Source: Stutzerimonas stutzeri (lineage in GTDB: Bacteria; Pseudomonadota; Gammaproteobacteria; Pseudomonadales; Pseudomonadaceae). From it: a stretch of DNA of 64,000 bases. A program made the position numbers and the translations under genes. The stretch covers positions 62,001 to 126,000 of the forward strand of contig NZ_JAMOIH010000002.1 in the NCBI RefSeq assembly GCF_024448955.1, read 5' to 3'. Below the pieces are notes generated by a model. It ran no database searches, was not told where the DNA came from, and saw only the letters and a program-made list of their open reading frames with translations. Below, piece after piece: positions 37,528 through 40,128 of this stretch; position 1 is the first letter of the stretch, and each line of letters starts with the position of its first letter.

Positions 37528-38361
37528 CTAGTCTTGCAGGCCGATACGCTTGCCCGGCTGGCTGGCAACACGTTCGGCCTGACCGTCACGTTGCGCACCG
37601 GCTCGGGCGCGGCTCATCAATTGCGGAATCAGCGGCCCTTCCGGCAGGTTCCTCCAGAAGCGCACCGGCAAGTTGCTTCGCATCACCTCGCGATTCAGCC
37701 GCGCGGGGTTGAAGGTGCTTTCGTAATAGGTCTTCCACAGTTCCACGCCGGAATCTTGTACATCTTGCGCCAGCTGTCGCCAGATGGTCGGGCAGGGGTT
37801 GGCGTAGTGCATGTTCTGGCCATCCCACAACACCGCATCATCAGGCGTCGCGATCAGCCATGAATGCAGGCCCATGCGCTCAGCGAAGTGTGGCGATGCA
37901 CTGAGCAGGATGTCGTGTGCCGGCTCGAACCAGGCCACATAGTCCGGAGCGGTTTCGCTATTTAGTGGGCTAAAGCGGAGGAAGGCATGCATATGGTGAG
38001 CTTCGCGGCGTACCGCCTTGATCCGCGCATGCAGTTCGCTGCCATCGACATCGCCGGCGAGCCTGGCCGTCTGATCGCCCTTGGTGACCCGCCAGAGAAT
38101 GCGATACAGCAGGCTCCAGCGGTCGGCGCTGCGAAACCGCGCTGCGCTTTCCAATTCGTCCAGCAACTGCCGCGGAATACGGACGGGTAGCGAGGGTTCG
38201 GTCGGCTCGGGTGAGGCATCGCGACAGTCGAACAGACTGCCTGGGGCATCGCCGCTCAGCCATTCGGTCTCATGAGGGGCGACGCCCGAACCAAGCAGGG
38301 CGCGGGCAGCATTGCGCCAACCTTCGAAGCTGCCATCGAAGCGCACCTGACGCATCACCAC
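37528..38361 (-). CDS. DUF4130 / TIGR03915-type probable DNA metabolism protein
   Basis: 277 aa. The family core is visible as YRILWRVTKGD, REAHHMHAFLRFSPL (pieces near residues 90-135) and WKTYYESTFNPARLNREVM with the ending LPVRFWRNLPEGPLIP. This domain is often fused behind the uracil-DNA-binding protein UdgX; here it stands alone. It overlaps the upstream radical SAM gene by 7 nt, so the two are cotranslated. The biochemical activity is unknown. A basic tail extends beyond the domain. Confidence 0.85.
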   Translation of the reverse strand: MVMRQVRFDGSFEGWRNAARALLGSGVAPHETEWLSGDAPGSLFDCRDASPEPTEPSLPVRIPRQLLDELESAARFRSADRWSLLYRILWRVTKGDQTARLAGDVDGSELHARIKAVRREAHHMHAFLRFSPLNSETAPDYVAWFEPAHDILLSASPHFAERMGLHSWLIATPDDAVLWDGQNMHYANPCPTIWRQLAQDVQDSGVELWKTYYESTFNPARLNREVMRSNLPVRFWRNLPEGPLIPQLMSRARAGAQRDGQAERVASQPGKRIGLQD

Positions 38362-39566
38362 AGCGCCATCTGCTGGGGACCTTCGCTGAGTTGCTGGCGC
38401 AAGGCTGCTGACTCGCGGTAGGCCAGCGGCGGCCGGTAGTCATGGGTTATGACGAAGGGTTTGGCCTTTTCCAGCGAGCAGCGCAGCCGCGTCAGATCTT
38501 CGAACCGGATGCGTTTTTGCCGACGCAGAGCGACCAGTCGTTTGGCACTGAGCATTCCGATGCCGGGGATGCGTGCGATCAACGACGGCTCGGCACGGTT
38601 CAGGTCGACCGGAAAGTACTCGCGGTTGGACAGCGCCCAGGCAAGCTTGGGGTCGATATCCAGCGGTAGATTACCTGGGCCGGCGAGTAGCTCGCCGGCA
38701 CGGAAGCCATAGCCGCGCATGAGGAAGTCGGCCTGATACAACCGATGCTCACGTAACAGTGGCGGTGCTTCGAACGGCACGGTCTTGGGGCTGTGCGGAA
38801 TTGGGCTGAACGCCGAGTAATAGACCCGGCGCAGGCGATAATCGCCATATAGCGACTGTGCGGTATGCAGAATGGTGCTGTCGTCAGTTGCGTCGGCGCC
38901 AACGATCATCTGTGTGCTTTGCCCGGCTGGAGCGAAACGCGGCGAACCTTTCTCCGTCTGGGCTTCGGTCTCTCCTTGATGAATCGAATGCATGGCCTGT
39001 TTGATCGTCACTACCTGCTTTTCCGGTGCCAGGCGGATCAGGCTGGTCTCGGTGGGCAATTCGATATTGACGCTGAGGCGATCGGCGTAGCGGCCGGCCT
39101 CGGCGATGAGCAGTGGGTCGGCGTCCGGGATGGTCTTCAGATGGATATAGCCGCGGAACTCATGCTCCTCGCGTAGCAGTTTGGCTACGCGGTTCAGCTG
39201 TTCCATGGTGTAGTCCGCCGAGCGGATGATGCCGGAGCTTAGAAACAGACCGCTGATGCAGTTGCGGCGATAGAAATCCAATGTCAGCGTCACCACCTCT
39301 TCCGGGGTGAAGCGTGCGCGCGGCACGTCGCTGGAGCGGCGATTCACGCAGTATTGGCAGTCGTACAGGCAGAAATTGGTCAGCAGGATCTTCAGCAGTG
39401 CCACGCAGCGGCCATCGGGTGTAAAGCTATGGCAAATGCCCATGCCATCGGTAGCGCCAAGCCCGCTGCGGCCTTTCGAGCTGCGTTTTGGCGCGCCGCT
39501 GCTGGCGCATGACACGTCGTATTTCGCGGCGTCGGCCAGAACGCTGAGTTTGTCGATCAATTGCAT
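38355..39566 (-). CDS. Radical SAM protein of the putative DNA modification/repair family (TIGR03916-like)
   Basis: 403 aa. The Fe-S motif CLYDCQYC has Cys66, Cys70 and Cys73. An N-terminal segment has further Cys (C20, C45, C54). A C-terminal helix-hairpin-helix region (SLIARIPGIGMLSAKRLVALR) suggests DNA binding (quoted in part). The family is predicted to act in DNA modification or repair. A perfect SOS box lies 16 nt before its start, and it is cotranscribed with the DUF4130 gene. No experimental function is known to me. Confidence 0.88.
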   Translation of the reverse strand: MQLIDKLSVLADAAKYDVSCASSGAPKRSSKGRSGLGATDGMGICHSFTPDGRCVALLKILLTNFCLYDCQYCVNRRSSDVPRARFTPEEVVTLTLDFYRRNCISGLFLSSGIIRSADYTMEQLNRVAKLLREEHEFRGYIHLKTIPDADPLLIAEAGRYADRLSVNIELPTETSLIRLAPEKQVVTIKQAMHSIHQGETEAQTEKGSPRFAPAGQSTQMIVGADATDDSTILHTAQSLYGDYRLRRVYYSAFSPIPHSPKTVPFEAPPLLREHRLYQADFLMRGYGFRAGELLAGPGNLPLDIDPKLAWALSNREYFPVDLNRAEPSLIARIPGIGMLSAKRLVALRRQKRIRFEDLTRLRCSLEKAKPFVITHDYRPPLAYRESAALRQQLSEGPQQMALW

Positions 39567-39581
39567 GGTAAGAAGCGTCGA

Positions 39582-39605
39582 GATACTGTTCGTGCATACA
39601 GTATC
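39582..39605 (-). promoter_or_regulatory. LexA operator (SOS box) of the radical SAM/DUF4130 operon
   Basis: CTGT-N8-ACAG (39586-39601) is embedded in 8-bp perfect arms, GATACTGT and ACAGTATC. This fits the gammaproteobacterial LexA consensus. It lies 16 nt upstream of the radical SAM start codon, where LexA would block transcription. Confidence 0.82.
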
Positions 39606-39729: not shown

Positions 39730-40128
39730 ATGCGGCAGAACACTCATAGCACCCTGATCGGCTATCTCCTGTGGATATTCGGTTTTCTCGGTTCCCACCG
39801 CTTCTATTACGGCAAGCCGGTGACCGGCACCATCTGGTTCTTCACGCTCGGCCTGTTCTTCATCGGCTGGATCATCGACCTGTTCCTGATTCCATCGATG
39901 GACCGCGAGGCGGACATGCGCTTTCAGCCGGGACCGATCGATTACACCATTGCCTGGATCCTGCTGACCTTCCTCGGCATATTCGGTGTGCACCGGATGT
40001 ATCAGGGCAAATGGATCACAGGGATCATCTACCTGTGCACGGGCGGATTGTTCTTCCTCGGCGTGCTCTACGATTTCTGGACGCTGAATGATCAGGTCTC
40101 GGTGCGTAACGTAGAAAAGAATCGATAA
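39730..40128 (+). CDS. TM2 domain membrane protein with two tandem TM2 repeats
   Basis: 132 aa. Two copies of the TM2 signature occur: GFLGSHRFYYGKPVTGT and GIFGVHRMYQGKWITGI, each followed by a hydrophobic pair. Four TM helices in total. TM2 proteins are common small membrane proteins of unknown function. A hairpin follows at 40135-40164. Confidence 0.85.
   Translation: MRQNTHSTLIGYLLWIFGFLGSHRFYYGKPVTGTIWFFTLGLFFIGWIIDLFLIPSMDREADMRFQPGPIDYTIAWILLTFLGIFGVHRMYQGKWITGIIYLCTGGLFFLGVLYDFWTLNDQVSVRNVEKNR

Follow-up and report, generated by a model that had tools for sequence, protein, structure and literature searches.

The window, i.e., the entire 64,000-nt stretch of DNA analyzed, hosts a two-gene operon in which a radical SAM gene is followed by a DUF4130 gene and preceded by a LexA-type (SOS) box (Table 1). 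Profile searches confirmed the radical SAM-DUF4130 pair named by the original prediction. Specifically, the first gene product scored 536.8 bits against the NCBIfam family TIGR03916 (cut-off, 343.5), which we take to be COG4277, and the second scored 203.9 bits against TIGR03915 (cut-off, 112.25) and 124.8 bits against Pfam family PF13566; the named close relatives of the latter are Stutzerimonas proteins. The extent to which the two genes overlap depends on the start codon of the second: the 7 nt claimed previously holds if translation begins at GTG 38361, while ATG 38355 leaves 1 nt (TGATG). With script-chosen starts, the 1-nt overlap was found in 41/47 loci of the genus, a count that carries little weight because the script was guided by the ATG of the window.

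Table 1. Positions of the genes and sequence features in the window
Feature	Position	Strand	Description
Radical SAM gene, operon gene 1	38355..39566	(−)	TIGR03916 (rSAM_link_UDG), 403 aa
DUF4130/TIGR03915 gene	37528..38355	(−)	275 aa from ATG 38355; alternative start GTG 38361
LexA-type (SOS) box GATACTGT-N8-ACAGTATC	39582..39605	.	Core CTGT-N8-ACAG at 39586-39601; 8-bp arms
CxxxCxxC cluster motif, residues 66/70/73	39348..39371	(−)	Invariant in 72 aligned homologs
Cys20, Cys45-His46, Cys54	39405..39509	(−)	Invariant in 72/72 homologs; N-terminal to the radical SAM motif
Helix-hairpin-helix region, residues 320-359	38490..38609	(−)	HHH_3 (PF12836) just below cut-off
C-terminal DUF4130 tail	37531..37647	(−)	Linker-like, as between DUF4130 and UdgX in fused relatives; not followed by UdgX

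Next, we explored how widely this arrangement occurs. The radical SAM gene was present in 47/56 genomes of the genus and is therefore not essential, since the other nine lack it; TIGR03916 scored above its cut-off in 53/299 genomes drawn from the phylum, and the family was also found in Bacteroidota. DUF4130 was encoded in 58/60 loci and always followed the radical SAM gene, at a distance of <75 nt in all but one locus (561 nt). Typing of the flanking genes gave an ATPase of the PilT/PilU type and a TM2 protein; the TM2-domain gene (39730-40128, (+) strand) points away from the operon, with the SOS box in the spacer between them.

Features of the radical SAM and DUF4130 proteins

C66, C70, and C73 of the first protein form the CxxxCxxC motif by which the radical SAM superfamily is recognized, and Pfam Radical_SAM scored 28.7 bits, just below its cut-off of 29.5. 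The AF2 model had a mean pLDDT of 83.4, and the closest solved folds to its core were LipA, HydE, MgmA, and BioB. Lipoyl synthase, HydE, and biotin synthase nevertheless belong to different families, sharing 9-17% identity with the window protein in the rows compared, and differ from it in Cys spacing and in lacking its helix-hairpin-helix (HhH) tail; no lipoyl synthase profile match was obtained. The additional invariant residues Cys20, Cys45-His46, and Cys54 possibly form a second metal or Fe-S site, although residues 18-55, which contain them, were not confidently modelled (pLDDT <50).

These features bear on whether the protein directly reverses UV photoproducts in the manner of SplB. A radical SAM enzyme with a damage-type box and a DNA-binding motif would fit such an activity, and DUF4130 partners are termed SplB-like in the available part of PMC3765255. 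However, no NCBIfam family besides TIGR03916 matched at E ≤0.001, leaving no SplB-family assignment, the closest solved folds are those named above (though SPL is compatible), and the extra invariant Cys residues appear to separate the family from SplB. We regard SplB-like reversal as improbable.

The C-terminal HhH region claimed by the original prediction is discernible, but its score falls just short of the Pfam threshold (HHH_3, 26.2 bits versus a cut-off of 27), and the matches to RuvA and ComEA-type HhH profiles were weak (E 0.006-0.03). This region is predicted to contact DNA. Alternatively, it could contact RNA or protein in an SOS-induced modification of either, given that the nearest folds include LipA, HydE, MiaB, and RlmN, which act on proteins, cofactors, and RNA; fusion of DUF4130 to a uracil-DNA domain in relatives, together with the HhH region, points instead to DNA, leaving RNA or protein modification very hard to credit.

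The DUF4130 protein was modelled with a mean pLDDT of 91.2, and comparison of its fold with solved structures returned no firm match. Its invariant positions include His, Arg, and aromatic residues, whereas no Asp was invariant among 75 rows; conserved metal-binding Asp/DHH residues characterize the RecJ/DHH phosphoesterases.

The LexA-type box in the genome and across lineages

The box is, as claimed, a perfect CTGT-N8-ACAG palindrome with 8-bp arms, but it lies 15 nt, not 16 nt, from the ATG of the radical SAM gene. A CTGT-N8-ACAG match alone is weak evidence, no more than chance, with one occurrence in the 64-kb window and 0.66 expected by shuffling. What sets the operon box above chance is its wider palindrome and its conservation. 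The exact form TACTGT-N8-ACAGTA occurs at only two sites in the 4.35-Mb genome, namely the operon box and a site before imuA, and six more sites carry one mismatch. Four of these six lie beside recA, umuD with SRAP, a PA0069-family radical SAM gene, and a tyrosine recombinase gene, while no named gene was found alongside L004 and L008. Since sites with up to two mismatches (n = 32) were fewer than those of a reversed control pattern (n = 71), only sites with zero or one mismatch are meaningful, and weaker ones carry no signal. As for conservation, the mean frequency of the top base across 47 promoters of the genus was 0.91 in columns −39 to −16 versus 0.65 further upstream, and the half-site bases CTGT and CAG were invariant. 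The genome encodes LexA (TIGR00498, 255.8 bits), whose own gene is immediately preceded by an exact CTGT-N8-ACAG; a simple scan found no sigma-70-like promoter.

The company kept by the strongest boxes raises the idea that the pair acts in mutagenesis or DNA modification, altering bases or helping error-prone synthesis instead of restoring the DNA. Strong boxes in the same genome also precede imuA and umuD, and DUF4130 is termed a predicted mutagenesis-related enzyme in the available part of PMC3765255. The flanking genes that were typed include no polymerases, however, and we consider such a role unlikely.

Two of the one-mismatch sites merit separate description. The PA0069-family gene (NF033668; L007:1534-2598, C13) has TACTGT-N8-ACAGTT just upstream and, like the radical SAM gene of the operon, is probably controlled by LexA; it resembles that gene in its class and in its box but belongs to a different family, with Radical_SAM as its only Pfam match. 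The 419-aa tyrosine recombinase (L009:1554-2813, C21) starts ~43 nt from the center of its box and is possibly an SOS-controlled integrase.

We then surveyed boxes in relatives, as proposed with the original prediction, counting matches in the −120 to +30 region against 100 shuffles per set. Among the 47 genus loci, which are closely related so that their counts are not independent, 42 had an exact CTGT-N8-ACAG and all 47 had a match within one mismatch (shuffled mean, 1.88). The corresponding numbers were 2/5 and 5/5 in other genera of the family (shuffled mean, 0.30) and 8/11 and 9/11 in other orders of the class (shuffled mean, 0.35), and the single same-order locus with LexA also had the CTGT-N8-ACAG box (1/1). 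The exact motif was absent (0/35) from the loci of a different class of the same phylum (probably Alphaproteobacteria), all 35 of which carried GTTC-N7-GTTC or GAAC-N7-GAAC (shuffled mean, 0.15). A LexA-type motif preceded 33/58 Bacteroidota loci (shuffled mean, 0.22), with two or more copies of GGA-N5-TCC in 16/58 and CTAA-N5-TTAG in 17/58, both of which are published for Bacteroidetes (PMC8565304, available part); a recognized box was absent from the remaining 25/58.

Further loci had no such box. The class loci L068 and L157 had no recognized box, although both genomes have LexA. The exact motif was also absent from the Psychrobacter/Moraxella-like loci (0/15, with two within one mismatch and 0.40 expected), the Acinetobacter loci (0/5), and the Neisseria/Brachymonas loci (0/3). 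One Psychrobacter-like whole genome contained no full-length LexA, its sole LexA-type match (62.8 bits) being C-terminal, and LexA scored above its cut-off in all 13 other genomes tested; the remaining Moraxellaceae and Neisseria are not known to encode LexA. A record titled Streptomyces cinereus (L087) contains a Psychrobacter/Moraxella-like operon whose radical SAM protein shares 78% identity with that of L047, and it probably represents contamination or mislabelling.

Taken as sequence evidence, the box, its conservation in the genus, and the lineage-specific motifs support the LexA control that had been predicted, and they do so beyond a single site because the operon carries each lineage's own LexA-type motif. 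The further claim that the box supports a role in DNA damage holds for the timing of expression; the box says nothing of what the pair does.

Fused, decayed, and absent UdgX domains

The original prediction also described a DUF4130 protein without UdgX, in families often fused or linked to it elsewhere, and proposed searching the genome for UdgX. Both statements were borne out. TIGR03914 (UdgX) had no match above its cut-off in the operon or genome (best, 28.8 versus 189.95 bits), and two UDG-superfamily genes, one of them presumably Ung-like by its motif, lie outside the operon. Judged by length, the UDG domain was fused in 35 of the 53 phylum-sample loci, with 14 stand-alone and 4 unresolved.

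Within the genus, TIGR03914 scored above its cut-off in 3/56 genomes and matched less strongly but still clearly in another two (141 and 108 bits), and all five copies sit inside the radical SAM-DUF4130 operon; the other matches were weak (≤~36 bits), that of the window genome being a 228-aa UDG-like protein. The main motifs of the fused domain were kept in 3/47 loci, key residues were lost in 2/47, and the domain was absent from 42/47. Both the Glu of motif A and the His of the R-loop, residues with a demonstrated importance in UdgX (PMC10359453, available part), are gone from the two decayed copies (L018 and L184). By comparison, GEQPG and the R-loop His were kept in 38/41 fused proteins. 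A KRRLH/KRRMH loop was retained in the class-level relatives L075, L210, and L212, and GEQPG with a TRxH loop in L023, L043, and L211; L193 kept GEQPG with an altered loop (LRRH). The box was present whether the domain was fused (5/5 genus operons) or not (42/42).

A quick tree of 122 rows required at least 11 changes of UDG state, at least 5 of them forced by starred branches. The window belongs to a starred group of 40 UDG-less rows, beside which the tree places L184 with its decayed UdgX (support 88, not starred). For 10 locus pairs lacking UDG, with dS >1 in several, dN/dS ranged from 0.016 to 0.046 for the radical SAM gene and from 0.078 to 0.169 for the first 240 residues of DUF4130. Given the UdgX decay, the linker-like tail, the tree placement, the low dN/dS, and the retained box, we read the locus as one in which a decayed UdgX domain was lost in the window's lineage while the box and core were kept.

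This distribution also bears on the published interpretation that COG1573-COG4277 serves base excision by UDG during the SOS response (PMC8565304, available part). Fusion in the 35 phylum-sample loci and the motifs kept in 38/41 fused proteins are what uracil excision would lead one to expect. On the other hand, UdgX is missing from this operon and genome and from 42/47 genus loci, the fused copies L018 and L184 lack the motif A Glu and R-loop His, and a home-made UDG profile, run against the operon stretches of 80 named loci including the 58 from Bacteroidota, found nothing. Uracil excision cannot fit forms without UDG, and we give it little credence.

Proposed role of the pair and published systems

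We favor, with moderate confidence, a LexA-repressed, damage-induced two-protein DNA-repair unit with UdgX as an optional module. LexA would occupy the promoter box and keep the operon repressed until RecA-driven LexA cleavage frees the promoter, allowing joint production of both proteins. Through its HhH region, the radical SAM protein would bind DNA, and its 5′-deoxyadenosyl radical would be used on a damaged base or sugar, either to reverse the damage or to modify the site; a further metal cluster, N-terminal and coordinated by Cys20/45/54, may assist, while DUF4130 would recognize or present the lesion or single-stranded DNA. UdgX, where attached, would add uracil/AP targeting, a module lost here with the core kept.

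The radical SAM and DUF4130 proteins look like an SOS-selected core with UdgX as an optional attachment, because the box stays where UdgX has decayed or vanished. Persistence of a LexA-type box through motif changes as well as UdgX loss suggests selection on this core under DNA damage. As to chemistry, a radical reaction that repairs or modifies damaged DNA would be the most likely. That the SOS effector is the pair and not UDG, and that it performs a new DNA-repair chemistry with a DNA-tethered, possibly two-cluster enzyme, is a serious but tentative proposal. If it is true, SOS-regulon lists that name the operon UDG base excision follow a domain many members lack. With UdgX motifs that are kept, decayed, or absent, the genus itself provides a series in which the core can be studied apart from the uracil domain.

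SOS control of such operons, read as uracil excision, is already published. In its available part, PMC8565304 (2021) places COG1573-COG4277 under predicted SOS control in Bacteroidetes and, by citation, in Verrucomicrobia and Alphaproteobacteria. The Bacteroidetes operon is, like the pair in the window, a two-gene unit under predicted LexA control; its motifs precede the 33/58 Bacteroidota loci above, whereas the window has CTGT-N8-ACAG, and its reading as UDG base excision contrasts with the absence of a UDG domain from the window form and the 58 Bacteroidota loci. DUF4130-UdgX fusions beside TIGR03916 (29/35 other-class loci) share the partner, the DUF4130 domain, and a LexA-type motif with the window, which retains only the linker-like tail in place of UdgX. 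Mycobacterium smegmatis UdgX (PMC10359453) belongs to the same family (TIGR03914) as the domain fused in relatives of the window but is absent from the window genome, and the available part of that paper makes no mention of DUF4130. For Acidovorax citrulli, the accessible text of PMC6595937 (2019) reports CTGT-N8-ACAG upstream of genes for DNA modification/repair and radical SAM proteins as data not shown; the box type is the same, the gene wording resembles the NCBI name of TIGR03916, and the genes may include this family. The Streptomyces venezuelae LexA regulon lists a radical SAM gene in the available part of PMC9380542.

The literature searched contained no functional study of DUF4130, TIGR03915/03916, COG4277, or UdgX with radical SAM or LexA. 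Within it, four observations are new: the box before the UDG-less form in the window's genus, the series of UdgX decay under a retained box, the 58 Bacteroidota loci without UDG in their operon stretches, and the extra invariant Cys residues of the radical SAM family.

Database names and records add some minor observations. One radical SAM homolog (P0214) bears the source name "predicted DNA-binding helix-hairpin-helix protein". Four stand-alone DUF4130 proteins (P0034, P0087, P0101, and P0103) are named uracil-DNA glycosylase at source with only PF13566 listed, a label that may have been carried over from fused forms. Finally, TIGR03916-like radical SAM proteins are encoded in records called phages from human fecal samples (L258, MT835514.1), with 48-51% identity in the rows shown.
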